Origin: Melaminivora jejuensis
Lineage (GTDB): Bacteria; Pseudomonadota; Gammaproteobacteria; Burkholderiales; Burkholderiaceae_C
Direction of reading: 5' to 3'
DNA length: 64,000 bases
NCBI RefSeq assembly: GCF_017811175.1
Contig: NZ_JACWIJ010000002.1
Span: 2,294,001 to 2,358,000, forward strand
Shown: positions 18,207 to 28,280 of the stretch, piece after piece
Position numbering within the stretch: the stretch's first letter is position 1
Layout: each line of letters begins with the position of its first letter
Position numbers and translations under genes: made by a program
The notes under the pieces: generated by a model
The model's input: only the letters and a program-made list of their open reading frames with translations
What the model was told of the DNA's origin: nothing
The model's database searches: none

Positions 18207-19132
18207 GCCGGCACCTCAGTGCGCTCGGCCACGCGCATCACGGCGCTGCGCGCGCGCGGGTTGGCCGCCACCTCGGCAGCGCCCGGCTTGATGCGCTCCA
18301 GTGCGCGCAGGTGCATGGGCTGGGGCGCGGCAAAGGGCGCGCGCCGGTCATAGACCTCCTTGGCGTGCTGGGCGATGAATTGCTTGACGATGCGGTCTTC
18401 CAGCGAGTGAAAGCTGATGACCACCAGCCGCCCGCCCGGCGCCAGCACCGACAGGCTGGCTGCGAGTGCCTGGCGCAGCTCCTGCAGCTCGGCGTTGATG
18501 TGGATGCGCAAGGCCTGAAAGGTGCGCGTGGCCGGGTGCTGGCCCGGCTCGCGCGTCCGGACGGTGGCGGCCACGATGTCGGCCAGCTGCGCCGTGCGCG
18601 TGATCGGGCCGTGCTTGTCGCGCCAGGCCACCAGCGCCTTGGCAATGGGGCCGGCGAACCGCTCCTCGCCGTAGTCGCGTATCACCTGGGCGATGGCTGG
18701 CGGCTCGGCGCCGGCCAGCCACTCGGCCACGCTGTGCCCGCGTGTGGTGTCCATGCGCATGTCCAGCGGGCCGTCGAAGCGGAAGCTGAAGCCGCGCTCG
18801 GGCGTGTCGATCTGCGGCGAGCTGACGCCCAGATCCAGCAGCACGCCGCTGACGCTGCCCGGCGGCAGCTCGGCGATGCCGCAAAAGCCTTCGTGGCGGA
18901 TGGCAAAGCGCGCATCCGCCGCCAGCGGCGCGGCCTCGGCGATGGCCTGCGGATCCTTGTCGAAGGCGATCAGGCGGGCATCGGCGCCCAGGCGCGAGAG
19001 GATCAGCCGCGAATGCCCGCCGCGCCCGAAGGTGCCATCGACGAAGCAGCCGCGTGCGCCCAGCGGGCCACCGAGCAGGTGCTCGACGGCTTCGTGCAGC
19101 AAGACGGTGGTGTGCCCAGGGGCCTGGTTCAT
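18203..19132 (-). CDS. rsmH: 16S rRNA (cytosine1402-N4)-methyltransferase RsmH (MraW)
   Basis: RsmH is the SAM-dependent methyltransferase for C1402 of 16S rRNA. From the ATG at 19132 ([16 protein letters not shown]) the protein is 309 aa; a TTG 8 codons upstream is less likely. Motifs are [16 protein letters not shown] (SAM motif I), [12 protein letters not shown] and [19 protein letters not shown] near the C-terminus, all diagnostic. It is the first gene of the dcw operon here because mraZ is absent. Confidence 0.97.
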
Positions 19133-19449
19133 GTGCCGCACCCCTTCAGCAGGCAAAAAACTGCGCCCCGGCGGACGGGGCGGACAGGATGAACGGGGGC
19201 GCCGGCATGGCCGGGGCCTGCGGGCTCAGCGATGAAGAAGGCCCTGGCAACACGGGAAGACAACCCTCGGACGGATATGGCCGGCACGGCATGGAGAAGA
19301 GAGCAAACCTGAAAAAACACGCGCCGAGGGCAACTTCTCCCACTTTCTGGCACTTTCAGGCACGGCACTTTAGCAGGAAACCCCTGCCCGCCATGACCGT
19401 CTCCGGCAGCCCGCGCTCGCGCACCCGCGCGGGGATCGTAAACACGCTC
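19133..19449. other. 317-bp gap upstream of rsmH where mraZ would be expected
   Basis: This gap separates rsmH from hslU and must hold the main dcw promoter. It contains three 10-bp direct repeats (19334-19363) and a partial repeat end at the hslU stop. I find no MraZ-like reading frame in either strand. A full mraZ needs about 430 bp and does not fit. Confidence 0.7.
19334..19363 (-). promoter_or_regulatory. Putative MraZ operator (three 10-bp direct repeats)
   Basis: On the minus strand three units follow head to tail: GTGCCTGAAA, GTGCCAGAAA, GTGGGAGAAG. GTG(G)-type boxes repeated every 10 bp are the known MraZ-binding pattern upstream of dcw operons. Two of the three have CC in place of GG, so the site may be weakened. 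A fourth AAAGTGCC lies just upstream, off the 10-bp phase. Confidence 0.55.
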
Positions 19450-19452
19450 TCA
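19413..19452 (-). repeat. Partial copy (one end) of the 167-bp quasi-palindromic element
   Basis: About 40 bp identical or nearly identical to the right end of the full copies. On the minus strand it reads TGAGAGCGTGTTTACGATCC and then continues GC-rich. Its first three bases are the hslU stop codon. Confidence 0.85.
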
Positions 19453-20769
19453 GAGAATGAAGCGCGACAAATCCTCGTCCTGGCTCAGGTCGCCCAGGCG
19501 GGCCTGCACATACGCGGCATCGATGGTCACGCTCTGGCCGGACAGGTGGGCGGCACCGAAGCTGACCTCATCGAGCAGGCGCTCCATGACCGTGGACAGG
19601 CGGCGCGCGCCGATGTTTTCCGTGCGCTCGTTGACATCGCAGGCGATGTGCGCCAGCCGGGTGATGCCCTCGGGCGTGAATTCAAGCCGCACGCCCTCGG
19701 TGGCCAGCAGCGCCTGGTACTGGCGCGTGAGCGAGGCATCGGTCTGCGTCAGGATGGCCTCGAAGTCCTGCACCGACAGCGACGTCAGCTCGACGCGGAT
19801 CGGAAAACGCCCCTGCAGTTCGGGAATCAGGTCGCTGGGCTTGGCCAGGTGAAAGGCCCCGGACGCGATGAACAGCATGTGGTCGGTCTTGACGATGCCG
19901 TATTTGGTGGACACCGAGGTGCCCTCGACCAGCGGCAGCAGGTCGCGCTGCACGCCCTGGCGCGAGACATCGGCGCCGCCGGCCTCCTGGCGCGCGGCCA
20001 CCTTGTCGATCTCGTCGATGAAGACGATGCCGTTTTGCTCGGCGTTGTGCAGGGCGCGGGAACGCACCTCGTCCTCGTTGACCAGCCGGGCCGCCTCCTC
20101 GTCGGTCAGCAGGCGCAGTGCCTCGGCGATCTTGAGCTTGCGCGTGTGCCGCCGCTCCTGGCCCATCTGGCTGAACATGCCGCGCAGCTGCTCGGCCATC
20201 TCCTCCATGCCCGCCGGGCCCATGATCTCCAGTTGCGGGCGGGCGTCGGCCAGGTCGATCTCGATGTCCTTGTCATCCAGCTGGCCCTCGCGCAGCTTCT
20301 TGCGAAAGGCCTGGCGCGTGGCGTTGCCCTCGGCAGGCTCGCTGCCGCGCGCCGGTGGCAACAGCACATCCAGGATGCGCTCCTCGGCAGCATCCTCGGC
20401 GCGGGTGCGCAGCTTCTTCATGTCGGCCTCGCGCGTTTGCTTGACGGCGACTTCGACCAGATCGCGCACGATGGAGTCCACGTCCTTGCCGACGTAGCCG
20501 ACTTCGGTGAACTTGGTTGCCTCGACCTTGATGAAGGGCGCATCGGCCAGGCGCGCCAGGCGCCGCGCGATCTCGGTCTTGCCCACGCCAGTGGGGCCGA
20601 TCATCAGGATGTTCTTGGGCGTGATCTCCTGGCGCAGACCGGCGTCCACTTGCTGGCGGCGCCAGCGGTTGCGCAGCGCAATCGCCACCGCCCGCTTGGC
20701 CGGCGCCTGGCCGACGATGTGGCGGTCGAGTTCGGAGACGATCTCCTGCGGGGTCATGGAAAGAGACAT
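19450..20769 (-). CDS. hslU: ATP-dependent protease ATPase subunit HslU (ClpY)
   Basis: HslU is the AAA+ unfoldase of the HslUV protease in the cytoplasm. The ATG at 20769 gives 439 aa starting [15 protein letters not shown]. Motifs are [15 protein letters not shown] (Walker A), [11 protein letters not shown] (Walker B), the insertion (I) domain with acidic and charged repeats, [15 protein letters not shown] (sensor 2) and the C-terminal DLSRFIL, which inserts into HslV. The stop codon is shared with the end of a dispersed repeat. hslV is 92 bases upstream, so the two form an operon. Confidence 0.97.
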
Positions 20770-20800
20770 GCAGCAGCCTGGCAAAAATACAATGAAATCA

Positions 20801-20846
20801 GCCGCAAACCCTTGCTGGGCAAGCGCTGACAGCTATCAAAAAAGTG
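20801..20846 (+). repeat. 40-bp dispersed repeat (hslV-hslU spacer)
   Basis: CCGCAAACCCTTGCTGGGCA followed by AGCGCTGACAGCTATC and AAAAAA; this is the cleanest copy of the family in the window. It sits between hslV and hslU. Confidence 0.9.
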
Positions 20847-20861
20847 TAATACCACCCACGC

Positions 20862-21410
20862 TCACAGCGTTTCGATGGTGTGGTGCATGTTGGTATAGAT
20901 GCACAGCTCGCCGGCGATCTCCAGCGCCTTCTTCACGATGTCGGGTGCGCCCAGCTCGGTGCTGTCCAGCAGCGCCTTGGCGGCGGCGTGGGCGTAGGCG
21001 CCGCCCGAGCCGATGGCGACGATGCCGGCTTCAGGCTCCAGCACGTCGCCATTGCCGGTGATGATCAGCGAGGCGCTGGCATCCGCCACGGCCAGCATGG
21101 CTTCGAGGCGGCGCAGCACGCGGTCGGTGCGCCAGTCGCGCGTCAGCTCGATGGCGGCGCGCGTCAGGTGGCCCTGGTGCTTGTCCAACTTGGCCTCGAA
21201 GCGCTCGAACAGGGTGAAGGCGTCGGCGGTGGCGCCGGCAAAGCCGGCCAGCACCTTGCCGTGGTGCAGGCGGCGCACCTTGCGCGCCGAGCCCTTGACG
21301 ACGATATTGCCCAGGGTGACCTGGCCGTCGCCGCCCAGGGCGACCTGGACGCTGCCGTCGGCCAGCGTGCGACGCACGCTCAGGATGGTGGTGCCGTGAA
21401 ATTGTTCCAT
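20862..21410 (-). CDS. hslV: ATP-dependent protease proteolytic subunit HslV (ClpQ)
   Basis: HslV is the N-terminal-nucleophile threonine peptidase of HslUV. I chose the ATG at 21410 ([14 protein letters not shown], 182 aa) because processing after HG exposes the catalytic Thr, followed by the conserved TILSVRR. Further landmarks are [20 protein letters not shown] and [13 protein letters not shown]. An open frame extends upstream for 74 codons but is not family-like. Confidence 0.97.
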
Positions 21411-21480
21411 GGTGGGGAGATATGAGGCCCGGGGGCTGAGTTTGCAAGAAGCCGGGCCACGGGCCGCGCGCCCGGCAGGG

Positions 21481-23352
21481 TCAATCGCTGCGCGACACCA
21501 CCCGGGCGTGCTCGTTGATACCGATGACGTTGAAGAACACCGCCACCAGCCGATGCAGGTTGCGAAACTCCAGCACCGCCCCGCTCGCCTGCTGGCTGGC
21601 TGCCCAGTTGAGCACGCCGCCGCCAGCGGCAAAGTCGATGCGCACCAGCTGGTCGCAGGCCACCACCAGCGGCACGCCGGGACGCATCAGCTCCTGCAGG
21701 GCCTGCAGCGCGGCGCTGGCGTCGCCCTCGATGACGCCCAGCAGCGAGGGCACCGGCCCCTGCTCGCTGCCCGGCGGCACCGACAGGGCAAAGCCGGACT
21801 GCATGGAGGGCAGGTAGCTGTCCGGCCCTGCGCCCTGGAGCGGGTCAGCATCAGCGCCGGGCTGCGCCAAGGCCTGGGCATCGCCGCTGAAGGTGCAGCG
21901 CGGCGGCACCCAGGACGGTGGCGAGACCTCGTAGGTCACGCAGTAGTCCAGGGCCGCCAGCTCGAACTCGTCGGGCAGATCCATCAGGCGCAGCAGCGCC
22001 ATGTGCAGCCGCCACCACTGCGGGTCGCGCGTGCGCTCGCCGGAAGGGGTGTTGCCCTGCACGATGGCCTGCAGCTGCGGCACGCCGACGAAGCGCAACT
22101 GCGCCGGCTCGTCTGCCAGGCGCTCGACGAGATCGGCCAACAGCGGCACGACCGACGGCTCGATATCGCCCAGGCGGCTCCACGACAGCGTCCACGGCTG
22201 GGCCGCCCGCGCCAGCGCGGCCTGCAGGCTGGCGATCGACTGCGCCGTCAGCAGGGCTGGAGCATTCCAGCTCAGCTCGCGCTGGGCTGCTGCGGGCTTG
22301 GCGCCGGTTTCGACCAGCGCCGGCAGGCCCAGCTGCTGGGGCAGGGAGAACCACAGCGGCGCGGTGTGGTGAAAGCGCGCCGCGTATTCGATGGCCAGGG
22401 CCTCGAACGGCTCGTGCTGCCCGGTGGCACGAAACAGGTCGAACAGCGTCAGCCAGACGATGCGCGCCTCCTGCTGGGCTGGCGCAGCATCGGCTGCGGC
22501 CAGGTCGGCGGCAGCGGCGCGCTCGCGGCGCGCCAGCACTTCGCGCAGGGCCGTCTCGGCGCCGGCATGGTCGGCGCTGGCAAAGCGGATGGCGGCCTCC
22601 TCCAGCTCGGGGTCATGAACGAAGCTGGTGCCAGGCGGTGCGGCTGCGGCTGCGGGCGCGGCTGTCGGCGCGGCGGGGGCAGCAGGGGCAGGGGCAGAAG
22701 GGGCAAACGCCAACGACGGCTCCAGCGCCGCCGGCTGCGTCAGCCCGGCGGTGTCGGCTGCCGGCGGCAGGGTCAGCGGCGCCGTCGGCGCAAAGGCCTT
22801 GGCGTGCTCGCCAGTGGCGAAGGGAGAGTTGGCCAGGGCAGTGGCCATGGCCTGCGCAGCGGGCGAGAGTTGCGCTGCGGCGCTGTCCGGTTGGGGCGCT
22901 GCGGCAGGCGCGGCCTGTGCGGGCGCAGCCGCTGGCGCCGCCCCGGCCCGGCCCTTCCACCACTGGTGCGACATCTGCGCCTCGATCTCGTCGATCTTGC
23001 GCAGGGTGTCGGCGCGCTCGTCGGGCGAGCTGATGCTGCTTTGGAACAGCGAGGTACGGATCGACGAGACCTCGGCTTCGGCCTCGGGCTGCGCGCGCGC
23101 GCCCTCGCGGCTGCGCAGCTTGCGCAATTGATCGAACTCGCGCCGGCGCACGAAGTCGTTGCGCCGCTTGCGCTCGATCATGTCCTTGAGCATCTGCTTG
23201 CTGTACTGGCTCTCGCGCTCCTCGTCCAGATTGTCGATCTCGGACCAGTTCACGGTGGGGTGGCGCACGAAGCGCACCATCTTGGACAGCAGCCCGCGCC
23301 CTGATGAGGGCGGCGGGCCGGCGGGGGACTCATCCTTGCTCATGCGGGTCAT
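21481..23352 (-). CDS. Large conserved hypothetical protein with C-terminal STAS-like domain
   Basis: A 623-aa protein of unknown function. Residues about 20-130 are highly charged, with predicted coiled coil ([20 protein letters not shown]). Residues 130-250 are Ala/Pro-rich linker. A helical repeat-like middle part follows ([17 protein letters not shown]). The C-terminal 100 residues ([18 protein letters not shown] and the following [17 protein letters not shown]) look like a STAS/MlaB fold ending with an interaction helix. No signal peptide or membrane segment is seen, so it is probably cytoplasmic. It lies between hslV and dksA on the same strand. The family appears to be Burkholderiales-restricted (recollection, not tested). 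Confidence 0.75.
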
Positions 23353-23400
23353 TGTGCCTTGCGGGCGCCGCGCGCAATCCCTGGAAAAGCCCGGTTGCCG

Positions 23401-23892
23401 TCAGTCGCCAAACATCTTCTGCTTGAGTTCGCGCCGCTGCTGCGCCTCCAGCGACAGCGAGGCCGTGGGACGCGCGATCAGCCGGCCCACGCCGATAGGC
23501 TCGCCGGTCTCGTCGCAGTAGCCGTAGTCGCCGGCGTCGATGCGGTCGATGGACTGCTCGATTTTCTTGAGCAGCTTCCTCTCGCGGTCGCGCGTGCGCA
23601 ACTCCAGGGCGTGCTCTTCCTCGATGGTGGCGCGGTCAGCGGGGTCGGGCACGACCACCGTGTCCTCGCGCAGGTTTTCCGTGGTCTCGTCGGCGTTGGC
23701 GTGGATTTCCTGCTTGAGCAGCACCAGCTTGTGCCGAAAGAACGCCATCTGCTTGTCGTTCATGTACTCGGCATCGGGCATGGCCAGCACTTCGGCGTCG
23801 GTCAACTCCTCGGCGCTCTTGGTCTTCCAGTTGTTGGCCAGCTTGGAGTCCTTCTTGGCGGCCGCCACAGATTTTTGCAGGGTCGTAGTCAT
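23401..23892 (-). CDS. dksA: RNA polymerase-binding transcription factor DksA (zinc-ligand-poor form)
   Basis: DksA binds the secondary channel of RNA polymerase and acts with ppGpp in the stringent response. From the ATG at 23892 the protein is 163 aa. It has the coiled-coil region with the DPADRATIEEE tip and the C-terminal segment GYCDETGEPIGVGRL, then ARPTASLSLEAQQRRELKQK. Three of the four zinc-finger cysteines of E. coli DksA are replaced here (T, S and E/A positions), leaving one Cys. Zn-less variants are common in alpha- and many betaproteobacteria. The next upstream gene encodes a COG0523 GTPase. Confidence 0.93.
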   Translation of the reverse strand: MTTTLQKSVAAAKKDSKLANNWKTKSAEELTDAEVLAMPDAEYMNDKQMAFFRHKLVLLKQEIHANADETTENLREDTVVVPDPADRATIEEEHALELRTRDRERKLLKKIEQSIDRIDAGDYGYCDETGEPIGVGRLIARPTASLSLEAQQRRELKQKMFGD

Positions 23893-24154
23893 GGTCTGAA
23901 TTGATGAAGCTGGCACGGCAGGGCAAGCCTGCCGCTGGTTGCCGAAAGTGGAACAAACAGCCTGATTGCCGTCTCGTCCTCTCGTGGAGGAGGCGACGCG
24001 GCGGTCAGGCCAGCGATGGTGCGCGCTGCGCCGGGCCGGCAGTGTAGTGCTTGTGCCGCCGGCGGCTGTCAGACAACGGGGCGCGATTGTAGGGCGGGGC
24101 CCCGGGCGCAGCCCATCCATGCCGCACGCCGGCGCTGCGGCATCGCCGCCCCGC
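23893..24154. other. dksA upstream region
   Basis: About 260 bp between the dksA start and the large repeat element. It must hold the dksA promoter. I see no RNA gene, reading frame or clear operator in it. Confidence 0.5.
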
Positions 24155-24321
24155 TCAGAGCGTGTTCACGGTCTCCGCGCGCAGGGGCGCGAGTGCGGAT
24201 CGGGCTGGGCTGCCAGGCGCAAACCGCAGCGATAGCCCGTGCTATCGTGAGGATTTGCAACGCCGCAGACCGCCCGAGGCCGCGCTCGAGCACCCGCGCG
24301 GGGATCGTAAACACGCTCTCA
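24155..24321 (-). repeat. Full copy 1 of the 167-bp quasi-palindromic element
   Basis: Terminal inverted repeats TCAGAGCGTGTTCACG and CGTAAACACGCTCTCA flank a GC-rich interior with a central stem-loop (CGATAGC/GCTATCG). The right end coincides with the stop codon of the COG0523 gene. It is inverted relative to the copy at 27100 and about seven bases differ by eye. No reading frame or transposase is present. Confidence 0.9.
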
Positions 24322-25398
24322 GGCCAAGCACTGGCCCAGGCCCTGCTCCAGGATGTCGCGCGGCAGGTCGATGCCGATGAAGACCATGCGGCTGACGCGC
24401 GGCTCGCCCTGCTGCCACTCGGGGCCCAGGTCGCTGCCCATGAGCTGATGCACGCCCTGGAAGATGACCTTGCGGTTGGTGCCTTGCATGTCCAGCACGC
24501 CCTTGTAGCGCAACATGCGCGGGCCATAGACGTTGACGATGGCGCCCAGGAAGTCCTCCAGCCGCGCAGGATCGAAAGGCCGCCCGGCGCGATAGACGAA
24601 GCTTTTCACGTCGTCGTCGTGATGGTGGTGGTGCGGGTGGCTGCAGTGCCCGCCGTGCTCATGCCCATGCTCGTGGCCGTGCTGCTCGTGCCCGCAGTGC
24701 TCGTCGTGGACATGGCCGTGGCTGTGGTCGTGGCCATCGCCCTCCTTCAGGAAGTCCGGGTCGATGTCCAGCCGCGCATTCAGGTTGAAGCCGCGCAAGT
24801 CCAGCACCTCGGCCAGCGGCACCTCGCCGAAATGCACGGCCTTGATGGGTGCGCGCGGGTTCATGTGCTTCAAGCGATGGATCAGCGCGTGCTTTTCGTC
24901 CTCGCTCACCAGGTCGGTCTTGGACAGGAAGATCTGGTCGGCAAAGCCCACCTGGCGGCGCGCCTCCTGGCGCTGGTCGAGCTGCGCGCCGGCGTGCTTG
25001 GCATCGACCACGGTGATGATCGAATCGACCAGATAGGTCTCGGCGATCTCGTCGTCCATGAAGAAGGTCTGCACCACCGGGCCGGGGTCGGCCAGGCCCG
25101 TGGTCTCGATGATCACGCGCTCGAAGTCCAGCAGGCCCTTGCGCCGCTTGGCCGCCAGCAGCTGCAGCGTCTCGCGCAGGTCTTCGCGGATGGTGCAGCA
25201 GATGCAGCCGTTGCTCATCTGCACGATCTGCTCTTTCGAGTCCGTGACCAGGATGTCGTTGTCGATGTTTTCCTCGCCGAACTCGTTTTCGATCACGGCG
25301 ATTTTTTGCCCGTGCGCCTCGGTCAGCACGCGCTTGAGCAGGGTGGTTTTGCCGGCGCCGAGGAAGCCGGTGAGGATGGTGGCGGGAATCAGGGACAT
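24319..25398 (-). CDS. COG0523 (CobW/ZNG1-like) G3E GTPase, putative zinc metallochaperone
   Basis: A 359-aa G3E P-loop GTPase starting MSLIPATILTGFLGAGKTT (Walker A at 11-19). NGCICC (Cys 65-68, the CxCC metal motif) and SKTDLV (guanine specificity) follow. A His-rich loop comes next with HDHSHGHVHDEHCGHEQHGH and later HPHHHHHDDD, then the CobW C-terminal domain. Family members deliver zinc (or cobalt) to client proteins. The adjacent DksA gene lacks zinc ligands, as in known Zur-linked DksA2/COG0523 pairs, but no Zur box was identified. The metal is inferred; cobalt for B12 synthesis is less likely without cob genes nearby. Confidence 0.85.
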   Translation of the reverse strand: MSLIPATILTGFLGAGKTTLLKRVLTEAHGQKIAVIENEFGEENIDNDILVTDSKEQIVQMSNGCICCTIREDLRETLQLLAAKRRKGLLDFERVIIETTGLADPGPVVQTFFMDDEIAETYLVDSIITVVDAKHAGAQLDQRQEARRQVGFADQIFLSKTDLVSEDEKHALIHRLKHMNPRAPIKAVHFGEVPLAEVLDLRGFNLNARLDIDPDFLKEGDGHDHSHGHVHDEHCGHEQHGHEHGHEHGGHCSHPHHHHHDDDVKSFVYRAGRPFDPARLEDFLGAIVNVYGPRMLRYKGVLDMQGTNRKVIFQGVHQLMGSDLGPEWQQGEPRVSRMVFIGIDLPRDILEQGLGQCLA

Positions 25399-25556
25399 GG
25401 TGAAGGGCTTTGCTGAGGGGTGCGGCTGGCAACGAAAGCGCCCGCGCGCTGGCCCTGGCGGGACGGCGCACGGGCGCGGTGGGCCTGACTGTAGCGAAGC
25501 CGGGCAGACCCTGGGCTGCAGGCCCGCCAAAAGGCTGATTTTCAGAGTGTTTTCAG

Positions 25557-25612
25557 CCTAAAAGCCTTGTGCAGAAAGCGCTGATAGCTATGTTTTACAT
25601 AGCAAATAACAG
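25557..25612 (+). repeat. 40-bp dispersed repeat (downstream of the heme-protein gene)
   Basis: Variant copy: AAGCGCTGATAGCTATG with a TTTTACATAGCAAATAAC tail; it lies in the gap between the COG0523 gene and the small heme protein. Confidence 0.8.
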
Positions 25613-25631
25613 ATAGCCAAAAGGCTGTGGG

Positions 25632-25862
25632 TCACTTGCGCCAGTAATTGTTGGCTGCCGCCACGGTCTGGAAGTTGATGGCCACGACCTGCGAGGCCGC
25701 CGTCAGCGCCTCGTGGCTGTTGGCGTATTCGGGGCGCAGCTTGTGCAGCACTTCGGCGTCGGGCTGGGTGTATTTCACGCCGCGGCGGCTCAGGGTGATG
25801 GCCAGCTCGAAGCCTTGCTGGGGCGTGTCGGTGATGAGCGAGGTCAGCCAAGTATCGGCCAT
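25632..25862 (-). CDS. Hexameric tyrosine-coordinated heme protein (HTHP) homologue
   Basis: The 76-aa protein starts MADTWLTSLITDTPQQGFEL and has TQPDAEVLHKLRPEYANS and VVAINFQTVAAANNYW. From memory this matches the 76-residue HTHP of marine Ruegeria (Silicibacter), which forms a hexamer with one heme per subunit, ligated by a tyrosine, and has weak peroxidase/catalase activity. The candidate heme-ligating residue here is Y46 in RPEYAN, aligned with Tyr45 of the mature reference. A GGAGAA ribosome site lies directly upstream. It is monocistronic between the COG0523 gene and a divergent phosphoesterase. Confidence 0.8.
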   Translation of the reverse strand: MADTWLTSLITDTPQQGFELAITLSRRGVKYTQPDAEVLHKLRPEYANSHEALTAASQVVAINFQTVAAANNYWRK

Positions 25863-26022
25863 GGGGTTCTCCTTTCGTGGGTGGTGGTGAAAAAGTGCAG
25901 CAAGGATGCCACTTAACGGGCCGTCCGGCGAGTGGCGCGCCCGATAGGCCCACAGCCAGCGCCAGCGCGCGCCAGGCGCAAGCCCGCACAATCCCCCGGT
26001 CACATCACGCTGGAGCAATTGC

Positions 26023-27102
26023 ATGAGTCTGGTTCAACCCCTGCCGCCCGGCCCGCTGGACATCGTGGGCGACATCCACGGTGAATTCGCCGCGCTGCAG
26101 GCGCTGTTGCAGCACCTGGGCTATGACGCGCAGGGCCGCCACCCGCAGGGCCGCACGCTGGTCTTCGTGGGCGATTTCTGCGACCGTGGCCCGGACAGTC
26201 CCGCCGTGCTGGCGCTGGCGCAGCAGCTGGTCGAGGCGGGCCGCGCCGTGGCGGTGCTGGGCAACCACGAGATGAATCTGCTCAACGGCGACGCCAAGGA
26301 CGGCTCGGGCTGGTTCTTCGACGAGCGCGTGGCGCACGACCAGGACAAATACGCCCCCTATGCCCGCCCCACGGCGCCCGAGCGCCAGGCCATCGTGGAC
26401 TGGCTGGCCGGCCTGCCCATCGCCCTGGAGCGCGCGGATCTGCGCGTGGTTCACGCCGTCTGGCTGGACGAGGCCATCGCCGCCGCGCGCGCCGTGCCCC
26501 TGGGTCAGGCCGGCCCGGCCTACACGCGCTGGGAGCGCAGCGCGCTGGAGCACGGCCACAGCACCGGCCTGGCCGAGCGCGTGCGCGCCGAGCTGCAGGC
26601 CTGCCCGCAGGGTCTGGAGCAGGAAGATTGCCCGCCACCCTTTCTGCACGCCTACGCACAAAACGAGGCCAACAAGCAGATGTTCAACCCGCTCAAGGTG
26701 CTGACCTCGGGCGTCGAGCGCAAGGCCGAGCAGCCCTTCTTCACCAGCGGCAAGTGGCGCTTTGCCGCGCGCGTGGCCTGGTGGAACGAGTACGCCGACC
26801 CGCGCGCCGTGGTGGTCGGGCACTACTGGCGCAGCGCCCGGCCCATGAACCGGCGCGATGTCGGCAAGGGCGACGCCGATCTGTTCAGCGCCATAGACCC
26901 GCTGCGCTGGCACGGGCAGCGCGGCAACGTGTTCTGCGTGGACTACTCGGTGGGCGGGCGCTGGCGCGAGCGGCGCGAGCCGCAGCGCGCACCGGGCGAC
27001 TTCCGCCTGGCCACCCTGCGCTGGCCCGAGCGCACGCTGCAGTTCGACGACGGCAGCGTCCAGCCGACGCTGGGCTTTGGCCAGCAAGAGAGGGGTGCCT
27101 GA
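26023..27102 (+). CDS. Calcineurin-like metallophosphoesterase
   Basis: A 359-aa protein of the PP2A/ApaH-like phosphoesterase fold. The dinuclear-metal motifs are GDIHG (16-20), GDFCDRG (50-56) and GNHE (80-83), with later histidines in VVHAV and VVVGHYW. The substrate is unknown; relatives hydrolyse phosphoproteins or dinucleoside polyphosphates. No signal peptide is seen. Its TGA stop (27100-27102) is the first three bases of the large repeat element, so the element begins exactly at the gene end. Confidence 0.85.
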   Translation: MSLVQPLPPGPLDIVGDIHGEFAALQALLQHLGYDAQGRHPQGRTLVFVGDFCDRGPDSPAVLALAQQLVEAGRAVAVLGNHEMNLLNGDAKDGSGWFFDERVAHDQDKYAPYARPTAPERQAIVDWLAGLPIALERADLRVVHAVWLDEAIAAARAVPLGQAGPAYTRWERSALEHGHSTGLAERVRAELQACPQGLEQEDCPPPFLHAYAQNEANKQMFNPLKVLTSGVERKAEQPFFTSGKWRFAARVAWWNEYADPRAVVVGHYWRSARPMNRRDVGKGDADLFSAIDPLRWHGQRGNVFCVDYSVGGRWRERREPQRAPGDFRLATLRWPERTLQFDDGSVQPTLGFGQQERGA

Positions 27103-27267
27103 GAGCGTGTTTACGATCCCCGCGCGGGTGCGCGAGCGCGGCCTCGGGCGGTCTGCGGCGTTGCAAATCCTCGCGATAGCACGGGCTATCGCTGCGGTTT
27201 GCGCCTGGCAGCCCATCCCGATCCGCACCCGCGCCCCTGCGTGCGGAGATCGTAAACACGCTCTGAG
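27100..27267 (+). repeat. Full copy 2 of the 167-bp quasi-palindromic element
   Basis: Begins TGAGAGCGTGTTTACGATCC and ends GATCGTAAACACGCTCTGAG. The central stem is CGATAGC-ACGG-GCTATCG. Its left end here is the same end that touches the stop codons of hslU and the COG0523 gene. The other end stops about 20 bases short of the convergent xerC stop codon. Confidence 0.9.
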
Positions 27268-27287
27268 GGCGTGCGCCGGCCCCGGCC

Positions 27288-28280
27288 TCAATCCTTGGGC
27301 GTGCGCCGCTTGGCGCGCGGGTGCGCCTGGTCATAGACCTGCGCCAGATGCTGGAAGTCCAGCCGGGTGTAGGCCTGGGTGGTGGTGATGCTGGCGTGGC
27401 CCAGCAGTTCCTGCACGGCGCGCAAGTCCTGGCTGGACTGCAGCAGGTGGCTGGCAAACGAGTGGCGCAGCATGTGCGGATGCACCGGCGTGCTCAGGCT
27501 GGCGGCGGCGCTGCGCTGGCGCAGGCGCAGCCAGACCATGTGCGCCGTGATGCGCGCGCCGCGCACGCCGACGAACAGCGCATCGGCATCCAGGCGCAGC
27601 GCCCGCACGCCGCCAAAGGGCCGGGCGCGCTGCACCAGCCAGGCCTGCACGGCGCGCACGGCGGGCGGCCCCATGGGCACGCTGCGCCGGCGCCCGCCCT
27701 TGCCCAGGACATGCGCCTCGGCGCCGTCCAGATCCAGCCAGCCACGGCCCTGGCGGTGCGCGGCGCTGCTGGCCGCGACATCCAGCCCGACCAGCTCGCC
27801 CACACGCAGGCCGCAGCCGTACAGCAGCTCGACCATGGCGGCGTCGCGCGCTTCCTCCCACGGGTCGGCCTGCGGCTCGCAGTGCTCGGCCAGATGCACG
27901 GCCTCGTCCACCGCCAGCGCCTTGGGCAGTGGCCGGGGTGCCTTGGGGGCGCGCACGCCCTGCGCCGGGTTGCGCTCCAGCAACCCCTGGCGCGCCGCCC
28001 AGGTGTAGAAGCCGCGCCAGCCCGACAGGATCAGCGCAATGCCGCGCGCGCTGCGCCCGCTGGCGTGCAGCTGCGCGGCAAAGCGGCGCAGGTGAGCGCT
28101 GGTGAGCGCCAGCAGCGGCAGGCCGAGGGGCTGCGCCGCTGCCTGCAGGCGCTGCAAGTCCTGGGTATAGAGCTGCAGCGTGCGCTCGGCCAGGCGCTTT
28201 TGCACGCGTGCGTGCTCCAGGTAGGCCAGCGCCTCGGCAGGCAGGGCCGGCGGGGCTGCGCCCGGCGCGCGCCGGGCCAT
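27288..28280 (-). CDS. xerC: Tyrosine recombinase XerC
   Basis: XerC resolves chromosome dimers at dif with XerD. The 330-aa protein has the N-terminal core-binding SAM-like domain and a catalytic domain with all expected residues: R159 (CGLRVGEL), K194 (LGKGGRRR), H269 and R272 (HMLRHSFASH), H295 (LGHASITTTQ) and the nucleophile Y304. It is preceded by a DUF484 gene with 1 base between stop and start, the same linkage as in E. coli, which supports XerC rather than a phage integrase. Confidence 0.95.
   Translation of the reverse strand: MARRAPGAAPPALPAEALAYLEHARVQKRLAERTLQLYTQDLQRLQAAAQPLGLPLLALTSAHLRRFAAQLHASGRSARGIALILSGWRGFYTWAARQGLLERNPAQGVRAPKAPRPLPKALAVDEAVHLAEHCEPQADPWEEARDAAMVELLYGCGLRVGELVGLDVAASSAAHRQGRGWLDLDGAEAHVLGKGGRRRSVPMGPPAVRAVQAWLVQRARPFGGVRALRLDADALFVGVRGARITAHMVWLRLRQRSAAASLSTPVHPHMLRHSFASHLLQSSQDLRAVQELLGHASITTTQAYTRLDFQHLAQVYDQAHPRAKRRTPKD

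Follow-up and report, generated by a model that had tools for sequence, protein, structure and literature searches.

Why should the same end of a repeat sit exactly on the stop codons of three different genes? The question is raised by a 64,000-nucleotide stretch of the Melaminivora jejuensis genome (GCF_017811175.1, contig NZ_JACWIJ010000002.1, positions 2,294,001 to 2,358,000), referred to here as the window. The repeat is a 161-bp non-autonomous mini-transposon, a miniature inverted-repeat transposable element (MITE) with inverted ends of about 16 bp, and it lies between 3-bp TNA duplications. The best overall explanation is very probably that the MITE was cross-mobilised by an IS1031-type transposase, that TNA targeting and selection placed it at gene ends, and that it carries a separate conserved central module. 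The module is a 45-nt core hairpin, and, unexpectedly, it recurs in related bacteria within mini-transposons whose ends are quite different. The features of the window are the following, where the A end is the end that is common to all three loci:

27103..27263, plus strand: full MITE copy of 161 bp, A end first, beside the stop of the metallophosphoesterase gene
27100..27102, plus strand: TGA target-site duplication, which is the stop codon of the metallophosphoesterase gene (26023-27102)
27264..27266, plus strand: TGA, the other copy of the target-site duplication
27161..27205 (genome C2:2321161-2321205), plus strand: 45-nt core hairpin, also present in other MITE types
24158..24318, minus strand: full MITE copy of 161 bp, A end beside the stop of the COG0523 gene
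24319..24321 (forward TCA), minus strand: target-site duplication, which is the TGA stop of the COG0523 gene (24319-25398, minus strand)
24155..24157 (forward TCA), minus strand: the other copy of the target-site duplication
24216..24260 (genome C2:2318216-2318260), minus strand: 45-nt core hairpin
19408..19449, minus strand: A-end remnant of 42 bp (98% identity); the remaining element and the second duplication are gone
19450..19452, minus strand: TGA stop of hslU, the surviving target duplication

At all three loci, the neighbouring gene ends in a TGA that directly touches the A end, and gene and element have the same relative direction throughout. An earlier note on this DNA had claimed this for the COG0523 gene, the metallophosphoesterase gene and hslU, and the claim holds at each of them. 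The two full copies and the lone end were also present where the note had placed them. One of its spans, 24155-24321, is exact (TCA, 161 bp, TCA), but the other runs one base too far at 27267 and ends at 27266. The note had described a 167-bp element that included the terminal TGA. Because the identical trinucleotide is also found at the other end of both full copies, it is a target-site duplication that lies outside the element, and the element proper is 161 bp. With up to 3 mismatches allowed, the window contains the 16-bp end motif five times, whereas shuffles predict 0.22 occurrences. One strand of each full copy folds into a long hairpin, with z scores of -7.5 (DNA) for one copy and -8.0 (RNA) for the other, as the note had anticipated. 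A simple gene caller placed no gene within any full copy, and the open reading frames that cross the MITE are mechanical.

The whole genome (3.75 Mb) was searched with the 16-bp end, allowing up to 2 mismatches. This search gave 85 matches, compared to 0 for the reversed pattern, and the matches were paired by hand into 49 places. These places are composed of 32 full copies (31 at 161 bp and one at 149 bp), 7 shortened copies of 16-56 bp that were selected for having TNA on both sides, one 846-bp insertion sequence (IS), and 9 degraded or single ends that include the hslU remnant. Identical TNA flanks are found in 31 of the 32 full copies; the exception, at 2091266, has TTA on one side and TGA on the other. 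Ten places without matching two-sided TNA (the IS, the hslU remnant and 8 single or degraded ends) were excluded from the stop and target counts, and three of the excluded places (2313434, 2886244 and 3640605) also touch a stop. The remaining 39 sites give the palindromic target consensus GNYCTNAGRNC. The copies are nearly identical to the copy at 27103 (median 98.8%), and their spread is therefore recent.

Four of the shortened copies (C2:2379579, 2412882, 3012620 and 3319067) are a lone 16-bp end between two intact TNA repeats. The rest was perhaps deleted through the hairpin, in which case these lone ends would be footprints of palindrome-mediated deletion. At C2:3319067-3319246, a full copy stands directly behind a 16-bp remnant on a stop codon, and one TGA is common to both.

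BLAST with the 161-bp element found far fewer close copies in four other genomes of the genus. G001 and G003 each carry one nearly identical full-length copy, G004 carries diverged copies (77-90%), and G002 has partial matches only. A Melaminivora alkalimesophila contig also carries a 161-bp copy. The orthologous gene ends of the three window loci hold no element in the relatives compared and are thus empty sites. In all 4 relatives compared, hslU likewise ends in TGA at the same codon, in agreement with the proposal that the host gene ends are native. The TGA of the COG0523 gene lies at the same codon in 3 of 4 relatives and that of the phosphoesterase in 1 of 2, the stop of the other relative being one codon later; the gene-end alignments with relatives end up to 14 nt before the stop.

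The only IS found in the M. jejuensis genome with the same ends as the MITE is the 846-bp element at C2:299659-300504. Its transposase is in pieces that match DUF4096, DDE_Tnp_1 and transpos_IS5_3. This resident IS looks inactive, and the MITE burst may have lost its mobiliser in this genome. There are 27 matches to the IS5_3 model, several of which are parts of one transposase. The MITE interior is not derived from the resident IS, with which it has only about 21 bp in common. ISs of 843 and 846 bp in two relatives (L036 and L058) share these ends, lie between matching TNA repeats and have two reading frames that overlap. In one paper (PMC12016507), IS1031-group elements are described as having a TNA target preference and a 3-bp duplication, and some of them as having two open reading frames joined by -1 frameshifting. 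The features of an IS5-family, IS1031-group MITE were found here: ends matching those of an IS, a 3-bp TNA duplication, no coding capacity and dispersed near-identical copies. Because its ends match IS5-type ISs and the TNA targets, 3-bp repeats and two reading frames are described for the IS1031 group, the 161-bp element is assigned from its sequence to that group of the IS5 family, and it would be moved in trans by such a transposase. This supports the earlier suggestion of a non-autonomous mobile element.

The coincidence with stop codons can be largely understood from how such an element would insert. An IS1031-type transposase of the IS5 family would cross-mobilise the MITE by acting on its ends of about 16 bp, GAGCGTGTTTACGATC. 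Insertion would occur at the TNA within GNYCTNAGRNC, with three bases duplicated. Since TGA and TAA are TNA, an insertion at either stop would re-create the stop and leave the protein unchanged. Insertions inside genes would presumably be lost through purifying selection, and the TNA rule and this selection together would yield most of the stop-codon coincidence. Thus, a transposon can reach gene ends without recognising them, because two of the three stop codons fit TNA and the stop is regenerated by the duplication.

A simple model was trained to call genes and yielded 349 over 403 kb (81% coding). The TNA is the called stop codon of a neighbouring gene in 17 of the 32 full copies (53%) and in 22 of the 39 counted copies. 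No called gene contains any of the 49 places entirely. At four places, one end runs into a called gene; the overlap is 1-8 bp in three cases and 77 bp in the fourth, where a weak call (score 14) enters one copy. TGA makes up 275 of the 330 called stops. Most of the stop coincidence is explained by the TNA target context, the absence of any copy wholly inside a called gene and the dominance of TGA among stops. The share expected on stops was calculated with target matrices of 11 bp and 5 bp that were learned from non-stop sites only, and it varies with the length of intergenic runs allowed. With the 11-bp matrix, the expected share is 0.42 for runs of up to 1000 bp (P 0.14 for the 32 full copies and 0.05 for the 39 counted copies), 0.45 for up to 500 bp (P 0.21 and 0.094), and 0.50 for up to 300 bp (P 0.42 and 0.25). 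When all sites are used to build the matrix, which is partly circular, the expected share is 0.29-0.62, with little excess unless runs are unlimited.

Several results weigh against this explanation. An unweighted null over non-coding TNA expects 0.11-0.27 on stops (P 3.6e-9 to 0.0018 for the 32 copies), and the 11-bp matrix with unlimited runs expects 0.29 (P 0.0032 for 32 and 0.00027 for 39). The 5-bp matrix expects 0.23 with unlimited runs (P 0.00023 for 32 and 8e-6 for 39), 0.38 for runs of up to 1000 bp (P 0.052 and 0.013), 0.41 for up to 500 bp (P 0.11 and 0.034), and 0.46 for up to 300 bp (P 0.28 and 0.14). The simple gene-call model would also miss broken genes. The flanks of the resident IS mismatch (TAA/TTA) and its transposase is fragmented, and no working mobiliser with these ends was found in the genome, where the ends of the IS5_3 matches were not examined. 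The target rule and the absence from coding DNA account for most of the stop coincidence, and a modest extra stop preference is possible. To this extent the target preference for gene ends suggested in the earlier note may stand; the larger part of the coincidence is explained by the TNA target, without gene-end recognition. Placement away from stops, which that note had named as counting against its idea, was found in part. Fifteen of the 32 full copies lie off called stops, and among 43 elements elsewhere with the same end motif and intact TNA repeats, 13 lie on a stop and 30 off stops by a crude test.

The central module came to light in G002, where BLAST alignments of the 161-bp element cover bases 58-106 at four places and bases 98-162 at a fifth. 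The four places (L199, L204, L208 and L215) are MITEs with different ends, GAACGTGTGAA, that lie between TGA repeats; the first eight bases of these ends equal those of the resident IS. A pattern of the 45-nt core is found in 10 of 40 genomes of the family, with up to 102 copies per genome, and the reversed pattern is found in none. Within the order, a covariance model of the 45 positions matches 13 of 150 genomes (E 1e-5 or better); across the class it matches 2 of 185. Each of these counts includes the M. jejuensis genome. Many of the elements that carry the core measure about 160-190 bp and are quasi-palindromic rods, in which the core is near the apex, its distance from the left end being 56-61 bp. 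An automatic end-finder left unclear boundaries in a number of its 52 rows, and the end types were taken from the clear rows only.

The clear ends fall into at least three groups. The first has TNA duplications with GAGCGTGTTTACGATC, GAGGCTGTGAGT or GAACGTGTGAA. The second has 4-bp TTAA or TTAG repeats with GGCAACGCTGAACAAGTC. The third has CTAG or TA, readable as C-TA-G, with TGTAGTGCTTC, GTGCACTGTCCCG, GTGTCCTGAGTTGC or TGTCTCGACAAGG. IS630 elements duplicate TA. Only two of the end types are tied to a transposase, TNA to IS5 and CTAG to IS630. In G113, a 1.17-kb element of the CTAG/TA group with CTAGTGTAGTGCTTC ends encodes an IS630-family transposase (199.7 bits, cut-off 100). Because of this element, the same core is read as riding with both IS5-type and IS630-type ends. 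In G019 (L275, about 1441-1602), a core-bearing element appears by eye to interrupt a tRNA-like sequence, with tagctcagtcggtagagc ... ggttcgatccc on either side. In G009 (L273, 1501-1647), two cores in opposite orientation lie about 57 bp apart, which suggests nested or composite elements.

The core has the marks of a conserved structure. A structure-free alignment of 44 distinct cores has 95.7% standard pair cells, and 6 of the 16 pairs are changed on both sides. Four of five measures were reached by 0 of 500 shuffles; only the fifth, which counts further pair types, was reached often (245 of 500). Slid structures gave a pairing of 27-41%. A set of 68 distinct model-fitted matches from more families has 11 of 16 pairs changed on both sides (91 cells) and all five measures reached by 0 of 500 shuffles, in an alignment that leans towards the structure and with shuffles that do not preserve relatedness. 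Unpaired T residues are conserved at position 33 in 44 of the 44 cores, at position 11 in 43 and at position 8 in 42, the conservation of T11 and T33 being partly selected by the picking pattern, which fixes positions 1-7, 9-14 and 31-45 with 4 substitutions allowed. The same residues are present in 25, 24 and 23, respectively, of 25 distinct order-level model matches, which come from other families and are less exposed to this picking bias, though model-fitted sets lean to the model. The conserved bulges and the covarying stems argue for recognition of the folded strand. Wobble pairs on the sense strand are 10 G.T and 23 A.C (P 0.035, with copies that are not independent), too weak a difference to point to the strand that folds. 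Taken as sequences, the 45-nt hairpins are most likely one structured module that is common to MITEs of different transposases.

A very stable hairpin directly 3' of 17 stop codons could have another meaning, namely that the element is retained there because its RNA acts as a 3' untranslated region (3' UTR), terminator or mRNA stabiliser. Two findings favour this idea: at 13 of the 17 stops the A end is the one turned towards the gene (P 0.049), and in the M. jejuensis genome the core is sense in 10 and antisense in 6 co-directional gene settings. However, the orientation goes with the target base. Read from the A end, the duplications of the full copies are TGA in 18, TCA in 2, TAA in 6 and TTA in 6 (the copy at 2091266 entered as TTA); at non-stop sites only, they are TGA in 5, TCA in 0, TAA in 6 and TTA in 4, one of the five TGA copies being directly behind a shortened copy on a stop. 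At both TAA stops, the B end is towards the gene. The A end would tend to face TGA through an asymmetric reading of the middle base of the target, and in these small numbers the orientation bias appears to track that base, not gene direction. A scan of 24050-27400 for intrinsic terminators (a GC hairpin followed by a T-run) found none in the two full copies. The core also lacks a sense bias in two further genomes, with 14 sense and 13 antisense in G029 and 7 and 7 in G027, counted in stretches that cover about half of the core matches (102 and 42) and with 1 of 51 and 1 of 24 core places dropped at stretch edges. This balance disfavours a role in sense mRNA. Recruitment as a terminator or 3' UTR, which the earlier note had entertained, was thus rejected as the main explanation on the terminator scan, the orientation and the strand balance, and it is improbable. 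The mobilising machinery might instead actively recognise gene 3' ends through termination, supercoiling between convergent genes or transcription. Thirteen of the 32 full copies do lie between convergent genes, and looser nulls leave a residual excess on stops, but target-weighted nulls limited to ordinary intergenic gaps show no clear excess, nearly half of the full copies stand away from stops, and three of the 32 have divergent genes on their two sides. We consider such recognition unlikely.

For the core, the alternative is common descent, in which one old MITE had its ends swapped by recombination and the hairpin was passively kept without function. One ancestor would predict a core at a similar place in different end types, and in several of them it does lie 56-61 bp from the left end; some end types also share sequence beside the core. 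On the other hand, the unpaired T residues are conserved while paired positions change compensatorily, whereas asymmetric bulges would not be expected to survive passive decay or conversion between the arms, and the end types come from at least two transposase families. Common descent is a serious possibility that falls a little short of probable. It is also conceivable, at somewhat less than an even chance, that the core is a functional module that was shared or captured by successive MITEs with unrelated transposases and aids their spread or persistence. Our favoured guess for its role is a DNA cruciform or single-strand hairpin that would be bound by a host factor and would aid MITE spread whatever the transposase. 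If the functional-module reading is true, bacterial MITEs of the order Burkholderiales would have in the core an "engine" that is independent of the transposase. Classification of MITEs by their ends hides the question of whether a selected interior exists that is independent of the mobilising transposase.

MITEs and TNA-targeting IS1031-type elements are already known. No description of the core was found in exact-string and topic searches, judged by listings of the open-access literature, outside which most subscription papers lie. In that literature, the exact end string returned no paper, and the exact core strings returned only a copepod paper that holds one 14-mer. The open-access listings for MITEs with IS1031/TNA, stop codons, Melaminivora, Burkholderiales and shared cores held nothing that describes the finding. 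The term "stop codon" is absent from the main text of a review on prokaryotic MITEs (PMC10969869). Rfam covariance models gave no match at the elements up to E 0.1 in window positions 19000-28000. A mir-598 match at 24663-24738 (E 0.0045), far below the gathering score and within the span of the COG0523 gene, was taken as chance.

Known systems share parts of this picture. REP/BIME palindromes, which are moved by RAYT, are likewise repeated extragenic bulged hairpins. The present hairpin differs in that it sits inside elements bounded by terminal inverted repeats with target duplications. A REP/RAYT system was rejected in the M. jejuensis genome, where the only Y1_Tnp traces are fragments at C2:580-582 kb and the nearest core, at 598 kb, is some 16 kb away. 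RUP of pneumococcus is an IS630-related, TA-target MITE that is mobilised by an IS630-type transposase. The CTAG-flanked core-bearing elements are also of the TA-target/IS630 type, though in a different host group, and RUP is not known to share the core.

The closest likeness of the 161-bp element is to the IS1031 group. ISLrh (857 bp, ends GAACCTGTCTAGTATCT; PMC12016507) likewise has ends that start with GA(A/G), a TNA target and a 3-bp repeat. The relatives of the MITE of about 850 bp likewise have an IS5 transposase in two frames, whereas the 161-bp element encodes nothing recognisable. MITEAba12 (PMC6382973) is also short and non-coding, with the ends of a resident IS, target duplications and highly similar copies. 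Its duplications are 9 bp with no identified sequence arrangement, in contrast to the strict TNA target that coincides with stop codons here. Also unlike MITEAba12, the MITE of M. jejuensis has a centre that is found in MITEs with other end types.

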